DNA of 64,000 nt from the NCBI RefSeq assembly GCF_947259555.1, contig NZ_CAMYMD010000025.1, forward strand, positions 1 to 64,000, in the 5' to 3' direction. Position 1 is the stretch's first letter. Each line of letters begins with the position of its first letter. The translations under genes and the position numbers were made by a program. Source of the stretch: an uncultured Roseovarius sp. (GTDB lineage: Bacteria; Pseudomonadota; Alphaproteobacteria; Rhodobacterales; Rhodobacteraceae). Below the pieces are notes generated by a model, which worked only from the letters and a program-made list of their open reading frames with translations, was not told where the DNA came from and made no database searches. Positions 666-49,073 of the stretch are shown piece after piece.

Positions 666-1094
666 TTATTCCAGCGCGTCCTGCACAATCTCGTCCAGAA
701 ACGTCTGCACCTTCTGCATCTCGCCTTCGGGGTAGGTGCGATAGCCCACCATCACCTCGCCCTCGCGCTCGGCGACAAAGACGCCATAGGGGCAATGCGC
801 GATATTCATCGGATCGGCCTCCATCACCTCGCGCGACAGGGTGGCGGAACAAAACAGGAAGATATCCGCCGCTTCGAAGATCTTGACGTCACTACCCACA
901 TCCGCGCCCGTGCGGTTGAGCATCTCGCCGACATGGCTGGTGAGGTCGATCACCAGCCCCCGGTCGAGGATTGCGCTTTCGACCGCGAATGTCGCATCGC
1001 CGAAGGTGCCGTTGAACGGGTAGGTCACCGCCTCCTGCGCCGCCGCCGGCAGCGCCATGAGGCCGAAAACCCCGGCCAGAATTGTCCGTTTCAT
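666..1094 (-). CDS. Secreted DUF302-domain protein of the sox operon
   Basis: A 142-residue protein with a clear Sec signal peptide (MKRTILAGVFGLMALPAAAQ, cleavage near residue 19-20). It continues as a single small DUF302-like domain; phrases such as AHCPYGVFVAE and TYPEGEM fit that family. DUF302 proteins are small periplasmic or cytoplasmic proteins of unknown function that often accompany sulfur-oxidation genes. It starts 39 bases downstream of soxF on the same strand and is the last gene before a stable hairpin, so it is probably cotranscribed with soxBCDEF. Two cysteines are present (FLFCSAT, AHCPY). No enzymatic role can be assigned. Confidence 0.8.
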   Translation of the reverse strand: MKRTILAGVFGLMALPAAAQEAVTYPFNGTFGDATFAVESAILDRGLVIDLTSHVGEMLNRTGADVGSDVKIFEAADIFLFCSATLSREVMEADPMNIAHCPYGVFVAEREGEVMVGYRTYPEGEMQKVQTFLDEIVQDALE

Positions 1095-1133
1095 TGCCTT
1101 TACTCCTTTGTCAGACAGGCGTTCGCGCGCCGA

Positions 1134-2402
1134 TCAATCGAACATGTCCGTGGTGATACCGGCATACCAACCGACCGATTCCTCGTAGGTCGCCTTGCGG
1201 GTTGCGGCGTCTTCGCCGGTCTGCGAGATAAACCCATCGACCTTGGCAATCTTGTCAGACGTCGCCTCGTAGGTTGCCCCCACCTTGACGCCATCATCCT
1301 CGGCGATGAGGGACCAGCAGGTATTGGTAAACTTCGCCGGGAACACTTTGGACCCGGTCAGCGCGCCGCGCACCGCCATGGCACAGACCTTGGCCTGTGA
1401 ATTGGCGGCAAAGCCGGATTTGGGCATGTCGCCCTGCGCCGCTGCATCGCCCAGAACATGCACGTCCGGGTCGGCCTTTGACGACATGTCGGCCGCGTTC
1501 ACCGGCGCCCAGTTGCCATCTGTCACGCCCGCCATGTCAGCGATACGACCGGCCTTTTGCGCGGGAATGACATTGCAGACATCCACAGTCTCGACCATTC
1601 CGTCAATGTCGATTGTCATGGCCTCCGGGTCGACAGTGACATTTGCACCGCCAAAGTCCGGGCCGATGCGCTCAATCATCCCGCTATAGTGACGCTGCCA
1701 GCCCTCTTCAAAGAGCGCCTGCTTGGAAAAGTTAGGCTTGGGGTCTGCCACGAGGATCTTGGCGGTCGGGTTCATTTGGCTCAGGACATGCGCCACCATC
1801 GAGATCCGCTCATAGGGGCCCGGCGGGCAGCGGTAGGGGTTGGGCGGGGCCACCATGGCAAAGCGCCCGCCCTCGGGCATCGCCATGATCTGCGCCTTCA
1901 AAAGCTCGCTTTGCGATCCGGCCTTGTAGGCATGCGGCATCTTGTTCTGCGCCGCCACAGACCAGCCCGGCACGGCATCCTCGACAAAATCAATGCCGGG
2001 GCTGAGGATCAGCTTGTCATAGGGCAGCACCGTGCCCCCGGCGAGGCTAACGGTCTTGGCATCGCGGTCCACATCCACCGCCCAGTCATGCACCACGTTG
2101 ATGCCGTATTTCGCGGCCAGCGCGCCGTAGGTATGGCTGATATCCTCCAGATCGGTGAAGCCGCCGATATAGAGGTTCGAGAAATAGCAGGTGAAATAGC
2201 TGCGCGAGGGCTCGACCAGCGTCACATTGATGGCACCCTTGCTGTCCTTGGCGATATAGCGCGCGGCCGTGGCCCCGCCCGAGCCGCCACCGATCACGAC
2301 AACCCGCGGCTTGCCATGCCCGTCAGCCAGCACCGCAGGCGACGAGAGCGTGGCAGCCGCAGCCGTTCCCACAGCAATGAATTTGCGTCGGTTGAAAGTC
2401 AT
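1134..2402 (-). CDS. soxF: SoxF, FAD sulfide dehydrogenase (flavocytochrome c flavoprotein)
   Basis: The 422-residue protein opens with a twin-arginine-type leader (NRRKFIAVG) and the dinucleotide-binding motif VVVIGGGSGGATAAR near residue 35. The rest matches FccB/SoxF: FTCYFSNLYIGG near residue 70 carries one redox cysteine, and the C-terminal segment with NTCWSLIAEDDG carries another and fits the flavocytochrome c flavin-binding region. The family oxidises sulfide to sulfur in the periplasm and passes electrons to a c-type cytochrome. The likely partner is SoxE, encoded 28 bases upstream. Gene order soxE-soxF matches Paracoccus-type sox clusters. Identity is secure; exact substrate in this organism is inferred. 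Confidence 0.93.
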   Translation of the reverse strand: MTFNRRKFIAVGTAAAATLSSPAVLADGHGKPRVVVIGGGSGGATAARYIAKDSKGAINVTLVEPSRSYFTCYFSNLYIGGFTDLEDISHTYGALAAKYGINVVHDWAVDVDRDAKTVSLAGGTVLPYDKLILSPGIDFVEDAVPGWSVAAQNKMPHAYKAGSQSELLKAQIMAMPEGGRFAMVAPPNPYRCPPGPYERISMVAHVLSQMNPTAKILVADPKPNFSKQALFEEGWQRHYSGMIERIGPDFGGANVTVDPEAMTIDIDGMVETVDVCNVIPAQKAGRIADMAGVTDGNWAPVNAADMSSKADPDVHVLGDAAAQGDMPKSGFAANSQAKVCAMAVRGALTGSKVFPAKFTNTCWSLIAEDDGVKVGATYEATSDKIAKVDGFISQTGEDAATRKATYEESVGWYAGITTDMFD

Positions 2403-2430
2403 GGTGTCTCCTCCCAGATACGGACCGCGT

Positions 2431-3132
2431 TTAGTCGAGGTCCTTGAAATAGGCCGCCAGCGCTGCGATCTCCTCGTTCGACAGGCGTCCGGCCATCATC
2501 TGCATCACCGGATGGGGACGCAGTTTGTCCTTGTAGGCATGCATCGCGACGACGAAATCCTCTTCCGGCCAGCGGGTGATCGAGGGGATGCCGTCCGCGC
2601 TGCCATCGGCCTGATGACAGCTCACGCATTCGCTGCTGAGATATTCGCCGTATTCCGGATCGCCCTGAATGGCGAGAATTTCCGGATCGACCGAGTGATC
2701 CGTGCCAATGGCCGTCGGTGCGGCCTCGGGTATGTTCGCGGGATTGTCGGAAAAACGGCGAAGATACGCGAGCAGGTCGGCGCGCGCCTGTTCGTCCTTG
2801 AGACCACGATAACTCATCCGGGTCTTGGAAACGAGCGCGCGCGGGTTCTCGATATAGGCGTCGAGTGTCCTGAGATCCCAGATCAGCCCGTCGACGCCTG
2901 CGCGTTCCATCGAGTCGGAATAGCGATAGTCCTCATGCGCCGCCGCACGCCGCCCGAAGAGACCATTGAGATGCGGCCCGATACGGTCCTCGGCCCCCTT
3001 CCCGATCTGATGACAGCCTTTGCATTGATTGAACTGAGCCTCCCCCGCCTCGGCATCGCCGATAAGCTCCGCCCGCGCACCACCCGCCACCATCACAGCA
3101 GCGAGTGTCAGCGCGGGCAGGAGCGCGCGCAT
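2431..3132 (-). CDS. soxE: SoxE, periplasmic diheme cytochrome c
   Basis: The start chosen is the ATG at 3132, which gives a good Sec signal (MRALLPALTLAAVMVAGG) and lies just after the soxD stop; an in-frame start further upstream would lie inside soxD. The 233-residue product has two c-type heme motifs, CKGCH at residues 37-41 and CVSCH at 169-173, so it is a diheme class I cytochrome made of two domains. In Paracoccus-type clusters SoxE is the electron acceptor of the flavoprotein SoxF. The N-terminal domain resembles the second heme domain of SoxD upstream (GxRIGPHLNGLFGR versus NRVGPQLNGVVGR), suggesting common descent by duplication. Confidence 0.92.
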   Translation of the reverse strand: MRALLPALTLAAVMVAGGARAELIGDAEAGEAQFNQCKGCHQIGKGAEDRIGPHLNGLFGRRAAAHEDYRYSDSMERAGVDGLIWDLRTLDAYIENPRALVSKTRMSYRGLKDEQARADLLAYLRRFSDNPANIPEAAPTAIGTDHSVDPEILAIQGDPEYGEYLSSECVSCHQADGSADGIPSITRWPEEDFVVAMHAYKDKLRPHPVMQMMAGRLSNEEIAALAAYFKDLD

Positions 3133-3136
3133 CGGA

Positions 3137-4195
3137 TCAGTGTCCGAAGGTCGAGAGATACGCGGTGATCGCCGCAATATCCTCGTCCGATCTCAGCCCG
3201 GCAAAGGCCATGCGTGTCCCCTTCATAAAGCCGCGCGGATCAGCCAGAAATGCGGCGAGGCTTTCATTGTCCCAGAACAGCCCGTCACCGGCCATGCCTT
3301 CGAGGGCCGAAGAATACTTGAACCCGTCCACGGCACCGGCGGCACGCCCCACCACACCGTTGAGCTGCGGGCCTACGCGATTCTTGGCACCCTCGCCCAC
3401 CTGATGGCAAGCCTTACATTTGCGGAACACCTTTTCCCCGGCGGCCACCAATTCGGGATCGGCGGCGGGCGCGGGCGCGCTCTCGGCGGCAGGTTCAGCG
3501 GCAGCCGTCTCGACCGGCTCTGCCTCGGCGGCGGGCGCTGCGGCCTCGGTCTCGGCGCCTTCCTCATCCGGGGTCACGTCGAGCACGGCGGCACGCATGG
3601 TGATCTCGACACTGTCCTTGCAGTTCTCCATGCAGGGCGCACCGTGCCAGATCGCATATTCGGTCTCGGCCCGGTTATCGACGATGAACCCGTCGGCATT
3701 GGGCATCTCGAACTCGGCGAAATTCTCGTGGCTGAGGGTGAAATCATCCTCCACCAGATTGTTGGAATAGAGGATATAGGCGGTGATCGCATAGACATCG
3801 TCGGGCGTCAGGCTCTGCGCATTGCCAAAGGGCATCGAGCGGTTGACGTAATCCCACACCGTCGACAGGTGCGGCCAGTAGGATCCCACGGTCTTGAGCG
3901 GGTCCTTGCGGTCAAGCGTGCCCTGCCCCCCCGCGAGCTTGGGCCAGTTTCCGATACCCTCGGCAAAGTCACCATGGCAGACGGCGCAATGTTCGGCAAA
4001 GACCTCGTCACCTGTCCACACGTCGCCCGACCCTTCGGGCAGACCGCGACCGTCGGGCATGATCTTGACGTCCCAGGCGGCGATCTCTTCGGGCAGCGCC
4101 TCGCGCCCCAGCCCGTATTCGCCCGACCAGACGGCGGTGGCGGTGGCGCTGACGGTGATGCCCGCGACCAGCGTGAATTTAAGAAACTTCGACAT
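3137..4195 (-). CDS. soxD: SoxD, diheme cytochrome subunit of sulfane dehydrogenase
   Basis: The start is the ATG at 4195, 17 bases inside the end of soxC and followed by a signal peptide (MSKFLKFTLVAGITVSATAT). The 352-residue protein has heme motifs CAVCH at residues 70-74 and CKACH at 260-264. They are joined by a low-complexity Ala/Glu/Pro linker at about residues 209-247. SoxD takes electrons from the molybdenum subunit SoxC in the Sox(CD) complex, which oxidises the sulfane sulfur bound to SoxY in six-electron steps and so prevents sulfur globule build-up. Overlap with soxC implies translational coupling. The pair Cys188 and Cys192 is not heme-binding (CMENC). Confidence 0.94.
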   Translation of the reverse strand: MSKFLKFTLVAGITVSATATAVWSGEYGLGREALPEEIAAWDVKIMPDGRGLPEGSGDVWTGDEVFAEHCAVCHGDFAEGIGNWPKLAGGQGTLDRKDPLKTVGSYWPHLSTVWDYVNRSMPFGNAQSLTPDDVYAITAYILYSNNLVEDDFTLSHENFAEFEMPNADGFIVDNRAETEYAIWHGAPCMENCKDSVEITMRAAVLDVTPDEEGAETEAAAPAAEAEPVETAAAEPAAESAPAPAADPELVAAGEKVFRKCKACHQVGEGAKNRVGPQLNGVVGRAAGAVDGFKYSSALEGMAGDGLFWDNESLAAFLADPRGFMKGTRMAFAGLRSDEDIAAITAYLSTFGH

Positions 4196-5462
4196 TCTCT
4201 GCCTCCCCGTTGGGCCGCACCCACCATGTCTGAATACAGTTGTTGTGATAGATCGAGTTTTCGCCGCGTACCTCGCGTAGCTGCGCCTTGGTGGGCTGGA
4301 TATAGCCGGTGTCATCCATCGCGCGGCTTTGCAGCAGCATCTCCTCGCCGTCCCACTCGGTGTCGAGGTAGAAGCGGGTGAGCGCCTTGGCCTCGCCTTC
4401 CTTGGCGAGCCGTGCGGTTTCCCAGGTCTTGCCACCATCCTTGGAGACATCGACGCGGGTGATCGCGCCATGGCCCGACCAGGCCAGCCCGGTGATCACC
4501 AGCGGCCCCTTGCCATGGGTGATCGGCGACTGCGGGCTGGGGCTGGTGACGACTGACTTGGCGTCCATCACCCAGGTCCATTTGCGGCTGATGCCATCGG
4601 CCAGCGTGTCGGTGTATTTCGAGGTTTCTTCGCGGCTCTCGACGGGGCCGTCAGTCACTTCGATGCGGCGGATCCACTTGACCCACATGTTGCCTTCCCA
4701 GCCCGGCACGACGAGGCGCACAGGGTATCCGTGTTCCTTGCGCAGCGCCTCGCCATTGGCCTTGAACGCCACCAGACAGTCGCCAAGCGCCTTGCCCATC
4801 GGGATCGAGCGGCCGTTCGAGGACGCATCGGCCCCCTCGACATAGACCCACTTGTCCTGCAACTCGCCCGCCACGTCGAGCCCCGCCTCTTCCAGCAGGG
4901 TGCGCAGCGGCACGCCGGTATATTCCATGTTGTGGATCATGCCATGGGTGAACTGCGCGCCATTGAGTTGCGCCCCCGCCCATTCCATGCCCGTGTTGGC
5001 CGCGCATTCGCAGAAATAAACGTGGTTCTCACGCGGGAAGCGTTCGAGATCGGCATAGGTGAACACCAGCGGCCGATCCACCAGCCCGTTGATCATCAGC
5101 CGGTAATCTTCCTTCTTGAGGTCAATCGCGCCGGAATGGTGCCGCTCAAAGGCGCAGCCCTGCGGCGTGATCGTCCCGTCAAGCGCGTGGATGGGCGTAA
5201 AGTTGATCGAGGAGATCGTATCGGCGGTCAGCCACTCGACATTGCGGCGCACCACGTCCGACTCGTATTCGATGGGCAACCCATAGGGCGAGGCATCGAC
5301 CCCGTCGCCAAGGCCCGTGGCCCAGGGCTGCACATCCGTGATCAGCGGGTCGGGCGTGCCCGCCTGTGCCGCGCCTGCGGTGACGGCCCCGGCTGCCGCG
5401 GCCACGCTACCGCGCAGGAACGCGCGGCGCGAGGTGGGTTTTCCCTTGAAAAGCTCAGACAT
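4179..5462 (-). CDS. soxC: SoxC, molybdenum sulfane dehydrogenase subunit
   Basis: The start at 5462 is preferred because AGGAGG sits at the right distance upstream. The alternative ATG at 5492 overlaps the soxB stop but lacks a good ribosome site. The 427-residue product has a twin-arginine export signal (TSRRAFLRGS) and belongs to the sulfite-oxidase-like molybdopterin family. The conserved segment around VYFCECAANTGMEW holds the cysteine of the cofactor site. Residues beyond about 300 form the Mo-co dimerisation domain (VVTSPSPQSP onward). With SoxD it oxidises protein-bound sulfane sulfur in the periplasm. Its presence indicates the complete Sox pathway from thiosulfate to sulfate. Confidence 0.94.
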   Translation of the reverse strand: MSELFKGKPTSRRAFLRGSVAAAAGAVTAGAAQAGTPDPLITDVQPWATGLGDGVDASPYGLPIEYESDVVRRNVEWLTADTISSINFTPIHALDGTITPQGCAFERHHSGAIDLKKEDYRLMINGLVDRPLVFTYADLERFPRENHVYFCECAANTGMEWAGAQLNGAQFTHGMIHNMEYTGVPLRTLLEEAGLDVAGELQDKWVYVEGADASSNGRSIPMGKALGDCLVAFKANGEALRKEHGYPVRLVVPGWEGNMWVKWIRRIEVTDGPVESREETSKYTDTLADGISRKWTWVMDAKSVVTSPSPQSPITHGKGPLVITGLAWSGHGAITRVDVSKDGGKTWETARLAKEGEAKALTRFYLDTEWDGEEMLLQSRAMDDTGYIQPTKAQLREVRGENSIYHNNCIQTWWVRPNGEAENVEVS

Positions 5463-5488
5463 CTCGAATGCCTCCTCTCGACTGGATC

Positions 5489-7186
5489 TCATGCGCCAAT
5501 CACCTTGACGCTGTCATTGGGCGCGACACGCACGGTGCCCTGCTTGGCGATGTGGTTCTCGACCACGTCCCAGATCTGCGGGCCCTCGGTGTCCTCGTTG
5601 ACACTGGCCCAACCGGCGACCACGTAATTCTTCTCGGGGTCAATCGCCTCGCCGGTCTTGAGCAGCACCATGTCGCTGATCCGGCTGCCCTGCGGCTGGT
5701 TGATGTCGATCCGGTAGCCCATGCCACCGATCCGCACCATGTCGCCGCCCTGCTGGTAATAGGGATCGGGGTTGAAAATGTTGTCGGCCACGTCCTCGAG
5801 GATCACCTTGATAAATTCGCCGGTCATCTCACTGCGATAGGCCTTGCCATAGGTCATTGAGGTCACGTTGAAGATATCCTCGCGGGTGATGTCTTGGCCC
5901 GGGATCAGGCTTGGCCCCCACCGCACGCCGGGCGACATCGCAATATCCGCCTCGCGCTCTTCGATCAGTGCCTCGCAGATCAGGTCATCCCACGAGCCGT
6001 TGAAATTGCCGCGCCGGTAAAGCAGACTCTCGGTCTGGCCGATCACCTCCTCCAACTCGGATTTGAACGGCGCGCGCTGCTCATCAATGAGCGCGGCCAC
6101 CTCCTTGTCCGGTTCGATCACGTCACTGAAAATCGGGATCAGCTTGTGGCGAAAGCCCATCATCCGGCCGTCACGCACATCCAGATCGACGCGGCTGACG
6201 AATTTGCCGTTGCTGCCCGACGCGATGAGGATCGTCTCGCCCACCAGCACCGGCTCGGGCAGCGCGTCGTGGGTGTGGCCCGTCAGAATGACGTCAATGC
6301 CCTTGACGATACCCGCCATCTTCTTGTCCACGTCAAAGCCGTTATGGCTGAGCACGACCACGAGATCCGCGCCTTGGCCCCGCACCTCGTCGACCATCGC
6401 CTGCATGTTCTCGTCGCGGATACCGAAAGAGTATTCCGGGAACATCCAGCCCGGATTGGCAATCGGCATATAGGGGAAGGCCTGACCGATCACGGCGATC
6501 TTGGCCCCGCCACGTTCAAAGAACTTGTAGGGCGGGAACAGCTCTGCAGGCTCGTCCCATTCGGCGTCGAAAATGTTCTGGCCAAGCGCGGCAAAAGGCA
6601 GGCCCTCGACGATCTCGTGCACCCGGTCAGAGCCGAGCGTGAATTCCCAGTGAAAGGTCATCGCATCCGGCTTGAGCGCGTTCATCACGTTGACCATGTC
6701 CTGGCCTTGCGAGTGATAGCAGGTGTAAGAGCCATGCCACGTGTCGCCCCCATCCAGCAAAATCGCATCAGGCCGGTCAGCGCGGATGGCATTGATCACA
6801 GTCGCCATCCGGTCCAGCCCGCCGACCTTGCCATAGCCCTGCGCCAGCGCACTGAAGTCGCCCGAGGACAGCGCATAATGCGACGGGCTGCCATCGTCGA
6901 TGTCATAGAGCTTGCGGAACTCTGCGCCGGTGACATGCGGGACAGCCCCCTTGTTGTCGCCCACGCCGATATTGATCGACGGCTCGCGGAAATAGATCGG
7001 CTTGAGCTGCGCGTGAATGTCGGTGATGTGGATCAGGCTCACATTGCCGAACGTGTCGAACTGCAAGAGCTGATCCTGCGTCAGCGCCTGTTGCGCCGCC
7101 AGTTTCGCCCAGTTGCCAAAGGACGACGCCCCCAGAATGGCCGAAGCCGCCATGCTCGTTTGAAGAAAATCACGACGCGAGATCAT
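5489..7186 (-). CDS. soxB: SoxB, sulfate thiohydrolase (dimanganese)
   Basis: The start at 7186 gives MISRRDFLQTSMAAS, a twin-arginine leader, with GGAAAGG upstream. The 565-residue protein is of the metallophosphoesterase/5'-nucleotidase type. Metal-site motifs are in order: ITDIHAQLKP near residue 54, LLDGGDTWHGS near 150, the SoxB-specific HWEFTLG, LSHNGFDVD, and TGHTHDALPEP. SoxB hydrolyses the terminal sulfonate from the SoxY-bound S-thiocysteine sulfate and releases sulfate. It is the first gene after a terminator-like hairpin in the soxA-soxB gap and is followed 26 bases later by soxC. Confidence 0.96.
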   Translation of the reverse strand: MISRRDFLQTSMAASAILGASSFGNWAKLAAQQALTQDQLLQFDTFGNVSLIHITDIHAQLKPIYFREPSINIGVGDNKGAVPHVTGAEFRKLYDIDDGSPSHYALSSGDFSALAQGYGKVGGLDRMATVINAIRADRPDAILLDGGDTWHGSYTCYHSQGQDMVNVMNALKPDAMTFHWEFTLGSDRVHEIVEGLPFAALGQNIFDAEWDEPAELFPPYKFFERGGAKIAVIGQAFPYMPIANPGWMFPEYSFGIRDENMQAMVDEVRGQGADLVVVLSHNGFDVDKKMAGIVKGIDVILTGHTHDALPEPVLVGETILIASGSNGKFVSRVDLDVRDGRMMGFRHKLIPIFSDVIEPDKEVAALIDEQRAPFKSELEEVIGQTESLLYRRGNFNGSWDDLICEALIEEREADIAMSPGVRWGPSLIPGQDITREDIFNVTSMTYGKAYRSEMTGEFIKVILEDVADNIFNPDPYYQQGGDMVRIGGMGYRIDINQPQGSRISDMVLLKTGEAIDPEKNYVVAGWASVNEDTEGPQIWDVVENHIAKQGTVRVAPNDSVKVIGA

Positions 7187-7216
7187 GTCTGACCTTTCCA
7201 CTACCGCAGGGATCAC

Positions 7217-7232
7217 ATGCGGAATTTTGAAT
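7217..7232. promoter_or_regulatory. Possible SoxR-type half-matching operator in the soxB leader
   Basis: ATGC-N8-GAAT matches seven of eight specified bases of the ATTC-N8-GAAT palindrome used by SqrR-type repressors. It lies between the soxA terminator and the soxB start. No convincing -10 box accompanies it, so internal promoter control here is only a possibility. Confidence 0.25.
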
Positions 7233-7244
7233 GTTTTAGTCAAG

Positions 7245-7276
7245 AAAAACCCCGCCCGGACCATGGCCAGGCGGGG
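7245..7276 (-). terminator. Rho-independent terminator or attenuator between soxA and soxB
   Basis: On the minus strand, CCCCGCC and GGCGGGG form a 7-bp GC stem with a 13-base loop, followed by five T residues. It begins only 8 bases after the soxA stop (7284). In an otherwise continuous sox operon it would lower expression of soxBCDEF relative to the carrier genes soxXYZA. Confidence 0.75.
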
Positions 7277-7283
7277 TCTTCAC

Positions 7284-8141
7284 TCAGTTGCGGACCGACG
7301 GCCCCTCGACCGACAGACCGTTGCCGCGGCTCGCGACATAAAGCTCAAGCGCCACGAATTCGGGGCTGCCGGGCTTGTATGTCTCGGCGCGGGTGTCGCG
7401 CACGCAGCCCTTGAAACGGGCATGCACCCCGTTCAGCTTGGTGTTCTTCAGCCGGTAGACCGGAAAGCCGTTGATCTGGCCCTGGCTCAGGTGGTCGGCG
7501 CGGATCATGCGGCCGTAATTGTCCTCGTGACAATTGGCGCAGCTCAGCTCCAGCTGGCCGGTGCGGGTATAGTAGAGCTCCTTGCCCGCCTCCCAGGTCT
7601 CGGCCACCGGGCCATCCGTCGCCACGTTCACGGGCATGCCGCGCGACACGGACGAGATCAGCGCCAGCATGCTGGTCATCTCGGTGCCGGTGTATTTCAG
7701 CGGCTCGGCCTCCATGTTCTCGGTGCGGCAGGCATTGACCTGCATCTCCAGCGTCCGAACCTCGCCCGCGTCCTCGTTCCACTTGGGGTAGACCGCGCGC
7801 ACGCCCTTCATGCTGTCCCCGGCATCGCCATGGCAGCTTGCACAGGACTTGCCCGCCTCGCCCTCGACCGTGTCCCAGGCATCCATCGCCTGCTCGACAA
7901 AGATCATCCCGGGATTGTCGAAATCGTCGGCCTGCATGGCGCGGGTCTCGGTGCCGCGGAAATGCCAGCCCGAGATCACCTCGGGCAGCGCCCCCTCAAC
8001 CGCCGCCGGGGCGTCGGTCCAGGTGGTAAGCTCGGTCTCTTCGTTGATGATCAGCGTATCCTCGACGGGTTCGGCCCATGCCATCCCCGCCGTGATTGCA
8101 CCCGCTCCCAAAAGCGCCGTTATCAGTGCTGTTTTTTTCAT
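7284..8141 (-). CDS. soxA: SoxA, diheme subunit of the SoxAX L-cysteine S-thiosulfotransferase
   Basis: A 285-residue periplasmic protein with a Sec signal ending near residue 23 (AMAWA-type site). Heme motifs are CASCH at residues 100-104 and CANCH at 201-205. Cys138 (VNACRTENM) and Cys246 (FKGCVRD) correspond to the cysteine axial ligands of the two SoxA hemes. The latter is the persulfide-bearing active-site cysteine in the family. It is therefore the diheme SoxA type. SoxAX conjugates thiosulfate to the SoxY carrier cysteine. It is the last gene before the intercistronic terminator. Confidence 0.95.
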   Translation of the reverse strand: MKKTALITALLGAGAITAGMAWAEPVEDTLIINEETELTTWTDAPAAVEGALPEVISGWHFRGTETRAMQADDFDNPGMIFVEQAMDAWDTVEGEAGKSCASCHGDAGDSMKGVRAVYPKWNEDAGEVRTLEMQVNACRTENMEAEPLKYTGTEMTSMLALISSVSRGMPVNVATDGPVAETWEAGKELYYTRTGQLELSCANCHEDNYGRMIRADHLSQGQINGFPVYRLKNTKLNGVHARFKGCVRDTRAETYKPGSPEFVALELYVASRGNGLSVEGPSVRN

Positions 8142-8171
8142 TGTCGTCCCTCCCTGACGGTGATGCCTCTC

Positions 8172-8501
8172 TCAGCCCAGCGCGATGCTCTTGGTCTCTT
8201 CGTAGACAGAGCCATCGTCGTCGTACCAGGTGAAGACCATGTCACCGGCATCGGGGATCACCGCCTCAAACTCGAAATACGGGTTGGTCGAAATCGCGGG
8301 CTCCATGGTCACGTCGACCACGGTCTCGCCGTTGAATTCGCAGGTGAAGCGGTTGATGATCGAGCGCGGGATGGTGTTGCCATCGGCGTCCTTGCGCTGA
8401 CCGGATTCCATCGGGTGGCTGATCAGGGTCTTGATCGTGACCGTCTCGCCGGCACTTGCCTTGCGCGGCGCTTTCACGCGGGGTTTCACATTGTCTGCCA
8501 T
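8172..8501 (-). CDS. soxZ: SoxZ, sulfur carrier complex subunit
   Basis: A 109-residue protein without an export signal, as expected because SoxZ crosses the membrane bound to the Tat-exported SoxY. Motifs typical of SoxZ are visible: VKAPRKASAGETVTIKTLI at the N terminus, HPMESGQRKD near residue 29, and FTWYDDDGSVYEETKSI at the end. SoxYZ presents the substrate on a mobile C-terminal arm of SoxY. The gene lies 24 bases after soxY and 30 bases before soxA, within one operon. Confidence 0.95.
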   Translation of the reverse strand: MADNVKPRVKAPRKASAGETVTIKTLISHPMESGQRKDADGNTIPRSIINRFTCEFNGETVVDVTMEPAISTNPYFEFEAVIPDAGDMVFTWYDDDGSVYEETKSIALG

Positions 8502-8525
8502 AGTCGGATTCTCCTAATTCCTGCC

Positions 8526-8942
8526 TCAGCCGCCGCAGCCGCCGATGGTGACCTTGACGTTGCTCGATGCCTTGACGAAAGAGCCGTCCTTCATCTTGGC
8601 GATCGCCACCACGTCCTGCGTTCCGGCCAGGCGGATACGGGTCGAGGCGCTGTGCGACCCGGCCAGCGGGCCGAACTTGAACTCGGCCACGCCGGGCGTC
8701 GGGTTGCCCATCGCCAGCACGAGAATCGCCTCGGCGCCGGGTGCGTCGACCTCGATCGGCACGGTGTTGCCGTTCTCGGCAATCTCGGGCGCGGTCAGGG
8801 TCAGGCCTTCGCTGCCCATGTCCGCCCCACCGGTGAACTCCGCGATGGCGTCCTCGGCAGCGGCGCTCGCGCGCATCGGCAGACCAAAGGCCACCAAGGC
8901 CCCCGCGCCCATTACCATCACGCTACGTCTCGTCATTGTCAT
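8526..8942 (-). CDS. soxY: SoxY, sulfur-binding carrier protein
   Basis: The 138-residue product has a twin-arginine signal (TRRSVMVMG) and ends in the swinging-arm motif VTIGGCGG. The cysteine at residue 136 is the covalent attachment point for sulfur intermediates. The first ATG at 8942 is preferred over a second at 8936 because AGGAG lies 10 bases from it. SoxY carries the substrate between SoxAX, SoxB and SoxCD in the periplasm and is exported folded with SoxZ. Confidence 0.96.
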   Translation of the reverse strand: MTMTRRSVMVMGAGALVAFGLPMRASAAAEDAIAEFTGGADMGSEGLTLTAPEIAENGNTVPIEVDAPGAEAILVLAMGNPTPGVAEFKFGPLAGSHSASTRIRLAGTQDVVAIAKMKDGSFVKASSNVKVTIGGCGG

Positions 8943-8987
8943 TGTGCTGAACTCCTGTTCGAAGCCGGCCCGGTGCAGGGGCGGCGG

Positions 8988-9458
8988 TCAGTATTTGAGG
9001 GTGGCGAGATAGGCCACCACGTCCTCGATCTGTTGCGCGGTGAGAAGCGGGCCAAAACTGTCATCCGCCGCCTCGCCGGTATAGGCGTTGCCGGGGCGGA
9101 TGAACCCATCGACCTTGTAAAAGGACGGCATCATCGAGCCCGGGAACATCATCTTGGCGTTGGCCACGATCCCCCGCAGCTCCGCTTCGCTCCAGCGTTC
9201 GCCCGCACCGTCGAGCATCGGACCGATCTCACCATGAAACGGAATGTCGCTCAGGTCGGAATTGGCATGGCAGGCCACGCAATTGCCGAGCGACTTGCTG
9301 CCCACCACCTCGCGGCCACGGGCAGGATCACCGGGCGCCCCGGTCAGCGATACGGCCACGGCGCCCTCCTCGAAGGGAACCTCGCCCGGGGCGATTTCTG
9401 CGGCGATGGCACCTGTTGCGGCACCGACCAGCGCGATCGTGAGACATGTTCGTTTCAT
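8988..9458 (-). CDS. soxX: SoxX, monoheme cytochrome c subunit of SoxAX
   Basis: A 156-residue secreted cytochrome with a signal peptide (first 20 residues), heme motif CVACH at residues 60-64, and a probable methionine axial ligand in FPGSMMPSFY (Met109 or Met110). With SoxA it forms the thiosulfotransferase that loads thiosulfate on SoxY. It is the first gene of the soxXYZA unit. The 116-base upstream gap after soxW contains a promoter and two ArsR-type operator candidates, so SoxR control is likely. Confidence 0.95.
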   Translation of the reverse strand: MKRTCLTIALVGAATGAIAAEIAPGEVPFEEGAVAVSLTGAPGDPARGREVVGSKSLGNCVACHANSDLSDIPFHGEIGPMLDGAGERWSEAELRGIVANAKMMFPGSMMPSFYKVDGFIRPGNAYTGEAADDSFGPLLTAQQIEDVVAYLATLKY

Positions 9459-9474
9459 GCGTCCTCCCTAACAC

Positions 9475-9490
9475 ATTCACATTTTTGTAT
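9475..9490. promoter_or_regulatory. SoxR operator candidate near the soxX transcription start
   Basis: ATTC-ACATTTTT-GTAT matches seven of eight fixed bases of ATTC-N8-GAAT. It lies immediately downstream of the proposed -10 box (minus strand, 9491-9496), where a bound repressor would block transcription. Confidence 0.5.
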
Positions 9491-9520
9491 ATCATAGGGC
9501 ACAATCGCGAGATCACACAA
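9491..9520 (-). promoter_or_regulatory. Candidate soxX promoter
   Basis: Read leftward, TTGTGT (9520-9515) and TATGAT (9496-9491) are separated by 18 bases, about 33 bases upstream of the soxX start codon. The match to sigma-70 consensus is 4/6 and 5/6. The position between two operator candidates supports it. Confidence 0.4.
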
Positions 9521-9524
9521 CAAT

Positions 9525-9544
9525 AAATTCTGATTTTTGAATTT
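9525..9544. promoter_or_regulatory. Perfect SqrR/SoxR-type operator in the soxW-soxX gap
   Basis: AAATTC-N8-GAATTT has perfect 6-base arms and an exact ATTC-N8-GAAT core at 9527-9542. This is the consensus I recall for SqrR-type sulfide-responsive ArsR repressors. The soxW-soxX gap is also where SoxR binds in related sox systems. SoxR is encoded about 2 kb away at 11352. Confidence 0.65.
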
Positions 9545-9574
9545 AATGTCACCCGGCGCGCCCCGTCTTCGGTG

Positions 9575-10144
9575 TCATTCCGCGGCGCGCTCCTGAATGC
9601 GCCGTGCGTGGTAACGCTGAAAATCTTCATCCGTATCAAGCGCATACCGCTTCTCGTTCACCCATGTCAGCATATCGAGCGTGGTGCCTGCCTCGAACGC
9701 GCCGGGCATCAGCGCCACCGCCGCCTGCGCCGCCGTCTGGCCCTCGGGCACCTCTTCGGGCAGGAACAGAATCGACGGCGTGAACAGCAGACCCCATTTG
9801 CGGGTCGCGGCCTTTTCGCTCAGTGATTCCCCGTCGAAATCGGTCACCTCGATGTCGCCATGCAGGTTGAGCTGCACGACAAAGAAGTTCTCGCGGATAT
9901 AATCGGCGATCTCGGGGCGCGGGAATACGTGCTCGTGCATCCGCGTGCAGTAGATGCAGCCGCGCTGCTCGACCATGATCATCAGCCGCTTGCCCTCGTC
10001 ATTCGCCTCATCCAGATCCTCGCGCAGGTCCTTGAACGTGTCGCGCATCCAGTCGGTCTTGTGCAGCCCGTCATCGCCCAACTCGGCGGCGGCAACCGGT
10101 AGCGCCAGCAGACAGGCCGCCAGCAGGCTCAGAAAACGTGTCAT
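9575..10144 (-). CDS. soxW: SoxW, periplasmic thioredoxin-like protein
   Basis: The 189-residue protein has a Sec signal (MTRFLSLLAACLLALPVAAA) and a thioredoxin fold with redox motif CIYC at about residues 63-66, preceded by MIMVEQRG. Its position directly after soxV matches the soxV-soxW pair of Paracoccus. There, SoxV delivers electrons across the membrane to keep periplasmic thioredoxins reduced and thereby the SoxY cysteine active. SoxW is often dispensable in relatives. Identity rests on motif, length and gene order. Confidence 0.88.
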   Translation of the reverse strand: MTRFLSLLAACLLALPVAAAELGDDGLHKTDWMRDTFKDLREDLDEANDEGKRLMIMVEQRGCIYCTRMHEHVFPRPEIADYIRENFFVVQLNLHGDIEVTDFDGESLSEKAATRKWGLLFTPSILFLPEEVPEGQTAAQAAVALMPGAFEAGTTLDMLTWVNEKRYALDTDEDFQRYHARRIQERAAE

Positions 10145-10157
10145 GATTCCTCCTCTC

Positions 10158-10895
10158 CTAGATAGTTTGAAATGCCGGAAACGTCTCCAGCATCCATTGC
10201 GCGATATGGTTGACGCTGTCGGTGGCGATCAGCCCGGCAAACACGATCAGCAGCAGCCCCATCGCCTTTTCCACCTTGGGCAGATGGCGGCGGAATTTCG
10301 AGGCAAACCGCAGGAACGGCCCGATAAAGAGCGACGCCACCATGAACGGCGTGGTCATCGCAAAGCCAAAGACCAGCAGCAGCCCCAGCCCCTCCATCGC
10401 CGTGGACTCGGTGCTCGCGGTAAAGACGACAGCGGTCAGCACGCCGCCCACGCAGGGCGTCCACCCGGCGGCAAAGGCAAAGCCGACCACATAGGCCCCC
10501 AGAACCGACATGTTCTTAGTGTCCCCCGCCTCCATCTGGAAAACCCGGTTGAGAAACCCGATCCGCAGCACGCCCAGAAAATGCAGCCCGAGGATCAGCA
10601 CCACCAGCGCCGCGAACAGGCGAAACTCGGTCTGAAAGCCGCGAAACGCCTGGCTGAGCCCGAAGGCCGCTGCCCCCAGCAGCACAAAGACTGTGATGAT
10701 TCCCGCCGAAAACATCACCGATGCGGCAAAGGCGCGGCGCCGCACGCCGGGGGCCAGCCGCCCCTCGGCGCTGATTTCCGACATCGAGGCGCCCGCCATG
10801 TAGCTCAGGTAAAACGGCACGATCGGCAGCACGCAGGGCGAGAAAAAGACGATCAGCCCGCCGACAAACGCGCTGAGCAGGGAGACATCGAACAT
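10158..10895 (-). CDS. soxV: SoxV, CcdA/DsbD-type transmembrane thiol reductant transporter
   Basis: A 245-residue membrane protein with six predicted helices and the paired cysteines of CcdA: SPCVLPIVPFYLS near residue 19 and GWTPCVGGVL near residue 143. It moves reducing equivalents from cytoplasmic thioredoxin to periplasmic partners, here most likely SoxS and SoxW. It starts at the ATG at 10895 and is transcribed divergently from soxS. The 81-base gap holds two opposed promoters sharing an operator. Confidence 0.92.
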   Translation of the reverse strand: MFDVSLLSAFVGGLIVFFSPCVLPIVPFYLSYMAGASMSEISAEGRLAPGVRRRAFAASVMFSAGIITVFVLLGAAAFGLSQAFRGFQTEFRLFAALVVLILGLHFLGVLRIGFLNRVFQMEAGDTKNMSVLGAYVVGFAFAAGWTPCVGGVLTAVVFTASTESTAMEGLGLLLVFGFAMTTPFMVASLFIGPFLRFASKFRRHLPKVEKAMGLLLIVFAGLIATDSVNHIAQWMLETFPAFQTI

Positions 10896-45517: not shown

Positions 45518-47296
45518 TCATCGTCTTGGCAGACCCATTTCAACAAGCGGTTCCAGATCATCCTTTATACCCGCGACAAGAGCAGGCCATTTTGGGAAAT
45601 GAAAACCGTATTTGATGATCTCCAAAGAGAAACCCGGCCGCACCAACAGCGCCTGATCGAGGGATCGACGAGCGGCTGCGGTATCTCCGGCACGCAATGA
45701 AACGACGGCCATGGCAGAATGTACAAACGCCTCTGCCCCGGGATGGCGGGCAGCGGATTCGAGATACTGGCGGGTATTCTCGCCGAGATGCATATCGCGC
45801 ATCCAGATCGCCACCGCGAGCATCCAGTAAAAAGACCAAAGCATCGGATCTTGCGGACTGAGGCGGATCGCCTCCAGCCCGGCTGCCTCCATTTCGTAGG
45901 TATCCGGGTCTTTTTGAAACAGGTTGATGAAGGTCTGAGCATTGTAAACGAGCGCGTCATTGTGATTGAGCGCGCGGGCACGCGCCAGAGCATCGCGCGC
46001 ATCGCTTTCACGTCCTTGCAAAGTGAGCAACTGTGCCAGCGTGATGTGGCCCAATTCAAGCCGGTCATCCAACTCGATCGCACGGTCGGCATGATACATG
46101 CCCGCAACGACGTCTTCACGAGGATTTCGGCTACGGCCCGAATAGATGCGTACGGCGTGCACGCGGCCAAGAAGCGCGTGTGGCAACGCATAGCTCGGGT
46201 CCGCCTCGGCCGCCGCCTTGAAAAGTGCGGTCGCAGTGCGCACCCCGCCGGTTGTGCGCATGTCGATCTCGGTCAAACCGCGCTGGCACATCTCCCATGC
46301 CGACAGACTCTCTGTTGGTTTGGCGCGGGACATCGCGCGCTCGTGAGCACCAATTTCGGGGGTCAAGCCAGTTACAATGCAACGCGTGATATCGTCTTGA
46401 AGCGCAAAAAGGTCGGACATGTCACGATCGTAGCGGTCTGACCAGATCTGATGCCCGGTTTCAGCCTCGATCAACTGAGCAGTGACTCTCAGGCGTGAAC
46501 CAGCACGTCTAACAGCACCCTGAACCACATAGCGCACCCGCATGTCCTGCGCGATCTGACGCATGTCCTGTGGACGTTCCTTGTAAGCAAAAGAAGACCC
46601 GCGGGCGATAACAAAGAGGGACCGAAAGCGCGACAGTTCGTTGATGAGATCTTCGGCGATTCCGTCGGCGAGAAATCCATCTTCGACAGCTGGAGAAAGG
46701 TTGTCAAATGGCAAGACGATCACGGACGGTCGGTCGGCGCTCTGGGTTACGGTGCTCCGGCTCGCGGCCTCGACACCCGTGGAGACCTGCCAGACCTCGA
46801 CAGGTGCGGGAATGTTGCGCACATACTGCATGCCCTGTCCGATGATGGTCATGGTTGCATCGTTCGCCATCATGTCTCGTACGGTACGGGAAATGCAGAT
46901 ACCGCCCGGCGCCGACAATGTCTCTAGCCGGGCAGCGATATTCACCACATCCCCCAGCACATCCGTACCGTCGATCAAGACGCTGCCGTGGTTGATTCCA
47001 ACCCGCAAGCGGATCCGCCGATCCTCCGGTACAGCATCTTCATGCGCCGCGATGGCGCGTTGTGCATAGAGCGATGCCCGAATGGCCGCGGCAGGGTCTG
47101 GAAACTCCACCAGAAGCCCGTCACCCATGGATTTTACGATCCGGCCTCCATTTTCAGCTATGGCAGGGTCTATTATGCCCTGTCGGAGCTCATGAAGGCG
47201 CGCGAAAACCGTTTCTTCATCCAAAGTAACCAGCCGCGAGAATCCCACCACGTCTGCGGCGGCGATGGTTGTCGCCCTGCGTTCCAGCGTCTTCAT
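45518..47296 (-). CDS. Class III adenylate/guanylate cyclase-like protein with TolB-like and TPR regions
   Basis: The 592-residue protein begins with a class III cyclase domain (residues about 8-170). Metal-binding aspartates are Asp15 (AADVVGFSRL) and Asp59 (VKSMGDGLLVEF), with VLGDVVNIAARLE as the adenine/transition-state region. Residues about 190-300 form a TolB-like N-terminal domain (SVIVLPFDNLSP, ELSRFRSLFVIARGSSFAYK). From about 330 to the end there are TPR-type helical repeats. No membrane segment is evident. This architecture is common in Rhizobiales and Rhodobacterales. It lies 50 bases downstream of the permuted oxidase gene and probably shares its transcript. Confidence 0.9.
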   Translation of the reverse strand: MKTLERRATTIAAADVVGFSRLVTLDEETVFARLHELRQGIIDPAIAENGGRIVKSMGDGLLVEFPDPAAAIRASLYAQRAIAAHEDAVPEDRRIRLRVGINHGSVLIDGTDVLGDVVNIAARLETLSAPGGICISRTVRDMMANDATMTIIGQGMQYVRNIPAPVEVWQVSTGVEAASRSTVTQSADRPSVIVLPFDNLSPAVEDGFLADGIAEDLINELSRFRSLFVIARGSSFAYKERPQDMRQIAQDMRVRYVVQGAVRRAGSRLRVTAQLIEAETGHQIWSDRYDRDMSDLFALQDDITRCIVTGLTPEIGAHERAMSRAKPTESLSAWEMCQRGLTEIDMRTTGGVRTATALFKAAAEADPSYALPHALLGRVHAVRIYSGRSRNPREDVVAGMYHADRAIELDDRLELGHITLAQLLTLQGRESDARDALARARALNHNDALVYNAQTFINLFQKDPDTYEMEAAGLEAIRLSPQDPMLWSFYWMLAVAIWMRDMHLGENTRQYLESAARHPGAEAFVHSAMAVVSLRAGDTAAARRSLDQALLVRPGFSLEIIKYGFHFPKWPALVAGIKDDLEPLVEMGLPRR

Positions 47297-47346: not shown

Positions 47347-48909
47347 CTAAGGCATGCGGGTAATCTTTGTCACCTGCGCATTTTTTTGGATACTTAGTGT
47401 CGGTGCCATTTGTGTCCAGATGTCGAGCCAGCCTTTTGACAGTACTGTGACCGCAGGCTTGTCACTGAAAATCAGGCCAAGCGTCAGCGGCAGCGAAATC
47501 CAGATCATGCCATAATAGGCAGGGATCTGCCTTAGAGGTCCATAGCCCTGCACGGAATAAGCGTATTCCAGCATACCCGTCAGGATCAGCAAGTCATTCT
47601 TTTCAAGAAAATCATAAAAGCTGTCGTATTTCAGGAGTTCCGTTGGTGCGGTCATCGGCATCGGCATGGTCAACCCGCGATACAGCAACAGCAGCAAATC
47701 ATATTCCGCCAATTTCACCAGAATCTCGCCCTTGACCTTTTCCGCGTCGAAGCCGTCAAGCCAGTTCTGAGGGTCGGCAAAGGGTTTATTGGCTTCGTAA
47801 TAGCCTTTGAGCAGAGTGAACTCATCATAATCCATCAGCGTCGCGGGGGCCGGGACACCCGGAAACTGGCCGGTCGTCACCATGGCGCGGATCGTGTGCC
47901 CTGCCGGGTCCTGATGATCCGCTTTCACGTACATGCCTTCGCGGATATTATCGGTCATGAACCCGCATTCGGCAAAATGCGCCGCCATGTGATTATATGC
48001 GGGCGACAAATAGCAGGTGCCCAATTCACAAGCAGTCGCCGCACCGTCATTCGACGGCGCGGGGCTGTCATAGGTAACCGTGTGGGTCTTGCCGCCGAAC
48101 CTGTCAGTGGACTCAAGAATTTCCACGTTGGTGAATCCCTGCTGTTGAAGACGGTGCGCGAACATCATACCCGAGGGCCCCGCACCCAGCACGATGATCG
48201 GCGCGCTCTTGTCTTCGGGCAGGGACCAGCCGAGCTTTTCCTGGTGATCGAGCAGCATCCCGCCATATTGCCAGCATTGCAGGACAGACTCGAAGCAGGT
48301 TGAGCCATGCACGAACAGCGTATTGTTCTTTCCTTGCAGATCAAGATAACTCCACGGGCCGCCTGAAAGAAGCCCGGCATTGTCGAAATGGTCGAAATAG
48401 GGTGTACGCAGATCGACCGGGGCCCCGCGGGCATCTGAAACGATCTCGTAGTCCGGATAGGGCCACCAATCGAGCGTCGGCAGAGTATCCCTCAGATTCT
48501 GAATGAATTCCGCCTCGGTCATCGGGGGATCGGCGGGCCCTTGCAACTGGTAGACGGTCACAAGGTTTTCAGTCATGGCGTTGGCGGTTTCAAGCGAGAA
48601 CTGCTTTGCCGTCTCATTGCGATACCCGCTGACTTGGCCAGACATTTCGCCGATTTCGGTCGGGGCCAGAATGATCCCGTATTGCGGCGCGGGACTGGGC
48701 ACCTTTACCCGCACCAACGTCGTGTGAAAGGTGAAATTGGTCAGTTTACCAAACACATCCAACTCTGCCGGCGTATAATCGCAGACACCTATCAGGTTGC
48801 GCGGTTCGCAAGCGATGACCAACAAATCGCAAGTCTTGCTTACAGGTGCGGCCCCTTCAATAGAAACGGTGATCGAGACGGGCGAGGACGTCGAAGTCTG
48901 GGATTGCAA
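47347..48909 (-). CDS. FAD amine-oxidase-like protein with its halves in permuted order
   Basis: The TTG at 48909 is preferred because AAGGAGA lies seven bases upstream; an ATG at 48948 would add 13 residues. The 520-residue protein has the FAD Rossmann motif VLGAGPSGMMFAHRL not at the N terminus but near residue 240, with the acidic residue in ILESTDRFGGKTHT following. Residues 1 to about 230 resemble the C-terminal half of such oxidases (CDLLVIACEPRNL, FHTTLVRVKVPSP, and YLDLQGKNNTLFVHG with FESV). The end, SIQKNAQVTKITRMP, is the strand that normally leads into that half. Joining the end to the start restores a normal order. Function unknown; see findings. Confidence 0.8.
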   Translation of the reverse strand: MQSQTSTSSPVSITVSIEGAAPVSKTCDLLVIACEPRNLIGVCDYTPAELDVFGKLTNFTFHTTLVRVKVPSPAPQYGIILAPTEIGEMSGQVSGYRNETAKQFSLETANAMTENLVTVYQLQGPADPPMTEAEFIQNLRDTLPTLDWWPYPDYEIVSDARGAPVDLRTPYFDHFDNAGLLSGGPWSYLDLQGKNNTLFVHGSTCFESVLQCWQYGGMLLDHQEKLGWSLPEDKSAPIIVLGAGPSGMMFAHRLQQQGFTNVEILESTDRFGGKTHTVTYDSPAPSNDGAATACELGTCYLSPAYNHMAAHFAECGFMTDNIREGMYVKADHQDPAGHTIRAMVTTGQFPGVPAPATLMDYDEFTLLKGYYEANKPFADPQNWLDGFDAEKVKGEILVKLAEYDLLLLLYRGLTMPMPMTAPTELLKYDSFYDFLEKNDLLILTGMLEYAYSVQGYGPLRQIPAYYGMIWISLPLTLGLIFSDKPAVTVLSKGWLDIWTQMAPTLSIQKNAQVTKITRMP

Positions 48910-49073
48910 AACAAATCTCCTTGAATGTCTGAATTTTAAAACACCCATCCAATGGGCTGGTGAAAGAGTACCTCAACTTGACCTTGGATAGAATTGACAA
49001 ATGCAACCGCAACGCAATCCTTGAACGTGGGCGGGTTGGAAGAGTAACTCTCCCGCGCACCACCATCAAACAC
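48910..49073. other. 164-base gap upstream of the permuted oxidase
   Basis: Holds the leader of the oxidase gene (leftward) and the 3' flank of the LysR gene. A small hairpin, AGAGT-A-ACTCT, is present near 49039-49049. No second Rossmann motif or gene fragment is seen, which argues against a broken neighbouring copy of the oxidase. Confidence 0.5.

Follow-up and report, generated by a model that had tools for sequence, protein, structure and literature searches.

A probable natural circular permutant of the FAD amine-oxidase superfamily in Roseovarius

The window, a 64,000-nucleotide stretch from an uncultured Roseovarius sp. (contig NZ_CAMYMD010000025.1, positions 1 to 64,000), carries a gene whose product is very probably a natural circular permutant of a flavin adenine dinucleotide (FAD) amine-oxidase-superfamily protein, nearest to the branch of polyunsaturated fatty acid isomerase (PAI). 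The fold of two-domain FAD oxidases has been studied extensively, and a chain of this kind is expected to open with the dinucleotide-binding motif. The canonical relatives used for comparison do begin with this Rossmann motif, whereas in the Roseovarius protein it lies near residue 240. A preliminary description, made from the sequence alone, had placed it there, and the other motifs that it quoted are likewise where it put them. Hence the N-terminal Rossmann motif and canonical order of the Pfam family PF01593 are not found in this protein, as its second half precedes its first. Both parts are homologous to the swapped halves of a canonical relative, with one copy of each, which is the pattern of a natural permutant, a rare form of rearrangement.

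Evidence for the swapped order

Residue numbers refer to P0001, the translation from an upstream ATG at 48948 on the minus strand that the open frame reaches (stop end 47347); they exceed those of the shorter, TTG-initiated protein by 13. Firstly, the unrotated protein matches PF01593 (Amino_oxidase) over residues 259–406, corresponding to profile positions 2–132 (1.5e-9; 38.1 bits, gathering score 19.8), and rotation by hand extends this to one uninterrupted match of residues 15–321 to positions 2–259 (4.3e-13; 49.8 bits), adding 127 profile positions. Secondly, a profile built from six canonical relatives, of which two share 96% identity, matches P0001 at 1.4e-38 (10 sequences searched), with its blocks falling along the chain as profile positions 279–477, 14–85 and 181–276. 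This order of last, first and middle recurs in all ten permuted proteins. Thirdly, in the reverse test, a profile of 10 permuted proteins aligned to the canonical protein L030 through blocks 241–315, 418–520 and 14–226, which fall on L030 residues 52–119, 200–311 and 317–514, respectively; the pattern is the same in L031 and L036, and L035 follows this order too, although one of its blocks is weak. These matches in both directions bear out the original proposal that the N-terminal part is the C-terminal half of an oxidase.

The junction in P0001 corresponds to canonical-profile positions 276|279, within the turn that joins ...VTKITR to PVSITVSIEG.... The profile stretch 86–180 is unaligned, and faces P0001 residues 328–442, which are present but divergent; hence the claim that nothing is missing or repeated holds at the profile level. 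The junction was placed by these block boundaries because a scan of rotated sequences, using 33 cut points and five more near residue 245 (one repeated) and recording the best single-domain score, produced a plateau of gain for starts from about 229 to 437, which supports rotation without placing the junction. The gains were clear for L030 (36.5 to 75.4 bits) and L036 (27.8 to 68.8 bits), and the score against the permuted L026 dropped from 788 to about 390. The gains for L035 (36.1 to 39.8 bits) and L039 (28.9 to 34.4 bits) were small.

The predicted structure points the same way. An AlphaFold2 model of the permuted chain, from an input alignment arranged by halves, has a predicted local distance difference test (pLDDT) of 84.9 and a predicted template modelling score (pTM) of 0.86, and on superposition each of its parts matches the opposite half of canonical oxidases. 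The fold check proposed in the preliminary description thus leans towards the proposal, with a middling score for the N-terminal part. The nearest solved relative, by both sequence and fold, is PAI from P. acnes (PDB 2b9w), which has the canonical order, unlike the permuted protein, which is not known to have isomerase activity.

Conserved residues connect both parts to the superfamily. Thirty alignment columns show no variation among 11 permuted rows and are at least 90% conserved in 28 canonical rows; 11 of these columns belong to the N-terminal part, and the thirty include G255, G257, G260, G285 and G286. The GxGxxG FAD motif followed by a GG doublet is present, as in the monoamine, polyamine and protoporphyrinogen oxidases of the PF01593 superfamily, with which the protein also shares an above-gathering score. 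The dinucleotide-binding region additionally matches Pfam NAD_binding_8 (residues 253–322, 3.9e-9), and none of the best 25 of 50 NCBIfam matches was above cut-off. Cysteines 40, 47, 225 and 307 occur in every one of the 11 permuted rows and in none of the 28 canonical rows. Hence the canonical proteins L030, L035, L036, L051, L039 and kin share the 30 columns, but have neither these cysteines nor the permuted order. As for the PAI active-site residues, one arginine is a candidate equivalent, at a position that depends on the alignment.

Were the permutation as proposed, the old N and C termini would be joined through a linker of about 10 residues, and the new termini opened within the turn of a beta-hairpin. 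Canonical proteins begin and end at about the position of this linker (Table 1). The chain would be expected to adopt the usual two-domain FAD enzyme fold, bringing together, as is usual in that fold, the dinucleotide-binding motif and LQGKNNT...CFES, which we take to be the second FAD-contact motif. The protein probably binds FAD.

Table 1. Minus-strand features of the permuted gene and its neighbour within the window (residue numbers follow P0001 unless stated)
Feature	Position	Strand	Basis
Coding sequence, permuted FAD-type protein, 520 amino acids, TTG start	47347..48909	minus	open frame, conserved start, dN/dS
AGGAG, likely ribosome-binding site, 7 bases 5' of TTG	48917..48921	minus	sequence; AGGAG-like stretches in orthologues
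Equivalent of canonical C-terminal half, residues 22–243	48220..48885	minus	
New N-terminal strand, 24–30, second strand of cut hairpin	48859..48879	minus	model, alignment
Linker, former C-terminal helix to former N-terminal strand, 235–248	48205..48246	minus	helix to 234, strand from 251
Equivalent of N-terminal half (FAD motif and substrate domain), residues 245–533	47350..48216	minus	
IVLGAGPSG dinucleotide-binding motif, residues 252–260 (about residue 240 from TTG)	48169..48195	minus	sequence; Pfam NAD_binding_8
New C-terminal strand, 524–530, first strand of cut hairpin	47359..47379	minus	model, alignment
Class III nucleotidyl cyclase with TPR-like repeats, downstream neighbour	45518..47296	minus	PF00211 1.4e-9; conserved adjacency

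Conservation and origin of the permuted order

The same order recurs in homologues, a point that the preliminary description had suggested checking. Full-length permuted relatives are found in eight named Roseovarius loci (74–83% identity), five of them titled as isolates. Among 60 genomes of the genus, nine encode the full-length protein, the source genome included, with seven of these records apparently coinciding with the named loci; a further seven of the 60 match the Rossmann part only. Across 394 genomes of the family, the permuted protein occurs in the source genome and one other, G409, which belongs to a different genus in which one of two genomes carries it; the G409 protein is 40% identical over residues 22–531. 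Draws of 385 genomes from the class and 398 from the phylum, which overlap, returned only the source genome, with three candidates scored per genome, such that distant relatives may be missed. This gives 11 distinct permuted loci in all (the window, L002–L009, L011/L048 and L026).

The 47347–48909 reading is the better gene call, because the TTG position is conserved and four loci have upstream in-frame stops. The aligned start (within one codon) is TTG in nine of ten same-genus loci and ATG in L008, and L005, L006, L007 and L009 have their in-frame stops 4 to 8 codons before it. The L015 and L017 matches, which begin 5' of the TTG, each contain a single stop, fitting these upstream in-frame stops. 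Relative to nine orthologues, the ratio of non-synonymous to synonymous substitution rates (dN/dS) is 0.07–0.13 for the whole protein and 0.06–0.14 for each half, values that are rough since dS exceeds 1. Judged from these coding sequences, purifying selection is acting on both halves of the protein.

A single old origin of the permutation is likely. One old event is suggested because the cut site is shared in two genera. A branch supported at 100/99 separates the 11 permuted rows from the others in an unrooted 39-row tree. The branches of this tree are long, and the software warns of long-branch joining. The order may have arisen through tandem duplication, fusion and end-loss. The alternative of fission and fusion, in which once-separate half genes were fused in reverse order, has some way below an even chance. 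In its favour, no tandem or trimmed intermediate was seen among the loci examined; against it, neither was a split version, all 34 extracted canonical frames being single. That a canonical N-terminal oxidase fragment was instead placed behind an unrelated domain would agree with the lack of a Pfam family match in residues 1–244 alone; such a fusion was tested and rejected, and is very improbable. The mis-joining or mis-binning of contigs, conceivable in a draft source genome of 111 contigs, has practically no chance of explaining the order, as independent genomes share it, both full-length in named Roseovarius genomes, isolates included, and in the two-contig G409 genome of another genus.

The GC content of the permuted gene is 55%, relative to 61.6% for the window, 58% for the cyclase gene and 63% for the upstream LysR gene; this low value is possibly a sign of transfer. 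A mobile origin was also considered and rejected, with no relatives of P0001 found in plasmids, phages or viral contigs (the last searched by alignment query). The G409 protein has four weak plasmid matches, covering 15–24%.

Canonical relatives and possible chemistry

Canonical-order relatives occur in other alphaproteobacteria (L030, L035, L036 and L051, as well as L039 and kin), and at the cut-offs used were detected in 3 of 8 genomes of one family (f78) and 74 of 105 of another (f146). The 34 frames extracted from such loci align to the canonical profile with its blocks in the usual order. Within the source genome, a paralogue search with P0001 at E 1e-3 matched the permuted gene alone; canonical profiles gave no match, but carry little weight, since only 6 of 36 and 6 of 42 candidates were scored and the permuted gene itself was missed. 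A Photobacterium plasmid region (NZ_CP119424.1:1564314-1565078), with no listed gene beneath, weakly matches canonical L036 at 28%.

Three neighbourhoods of canonical relatives were annotated in part. In L047, the canonical gene (9182–10627) lies directly 3' of a large open reading frame (957–9185) with ketoacyl-synthase, acyltransferase and, in two stretches, FabA-like matches. A thioesterase-like gene follows the canonical relative in L092, and an asparagine synthase follows that in L091. Hence two of the three neighbourhoods, together with the 2b9w match, point to acyl substrates. For the permuted protein, an isomerase- or desaturase-like reaction, with hydride transfer on a hydrophobic substrate of acyl type, can be suggested only tentatively, at less than even likelihood.

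Conserved pairing with a cyclase

The gene directly 3' of the permuted gene encodes a class III nucleotidyl cyclase, both in the window and in all ten other loci examined, with the L003 contig ending inside the cyclase. In G409, the two open reading frames overlap by about 20 bases, and its cyclase matches that of the window at 44% and 530 bits, compared with 133 and 115 bits for the two paralogues found in the source genome. Among the 60 same-genus genomes, a cyclase orthologue (73–100% identity, E <=1e-100) is present in all nine with the permuted gene and none of the 51 without it, although these cases are related, such that the independent observations are fewer than the counts suggest. 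This comparison covered matches of E 1e-100 or stronger, and two of the 51 genomes have cyclase homologues at 38% (G028:C18:249-1913 and G052:C1:2388042-2389712). On the 5' side of the permuted gene, L005 encodes a SulP-STAS transporter-like protein with a cyclic-nucleotide-binding domain (3641–5836; the Pfam assignment is for L005 only), and the upstream genes of L006–L008 are similar to it in length.

There is about an even chance that the permuted protein is functionally linked to this cyclase. A stronger proposal is that the flavoprotein is no metabolic enzyme, but a sensory partner that detects redox state, light or a lipid and thereby controls how active the neighbouring cyclase is. The adjacency in ten of ten other loci, the co-occurrence of the orthologues and the cyclic-nucleotide-binding domain upstream in L005 all favour such a role. 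However, the 30 columns held in common with canonical relatives come from both parts of the protein, and therefore enzyme function may persist; moreover, adjacency is no proof of regulation, and the same-genus cases share kinship. A purely sensory role is unlikely. The proposal that the permuted flavoprotein and the cyclase form a two-gene signalling unit, in which the new hairpin termini help to couple flavin chemistry to cyclic-nucleotide output, is more speculative still, and would be rather surprising.

Natural permutations have been described in other nucleotide-binding proteins. Excerpts of PMC11334425 describe circularly permuted FMN-bind1 proteins, which are likewise flavin binders, but with a flavin mononucleotide (FMN) fold in which one helix is displaced. 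The split-barrel flavin domain, also described as a natural permutation in work cited in an excerpt of PMC13327496, has an FMN-binding fold rather than that of a two-domain FAD oxidase. The cpRAS GTPases, as presented in part of PMC2430557, are permuted nucleotide-binding domains that keep their motifs, yet are unrelated in fold and function. No permuted protein of the amine-oxidase fold was found in the open-licence PubMed Central literature, of which the top-ranked papers were considered for broader queries.

Such a permutant, natural and conserved, would demonstrate that the FAD oxidase fold tolerates the opening of a hairpin and the joining of its termini, and would offer a natural reference for engineered permutants. 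It would also show that annotation based on the position of a motif can mislead. The conserved pairing with a cyclase, meanwhile, suggests a connection of flavin chemistry with cyclic-nucleotide signalling that can be tested.
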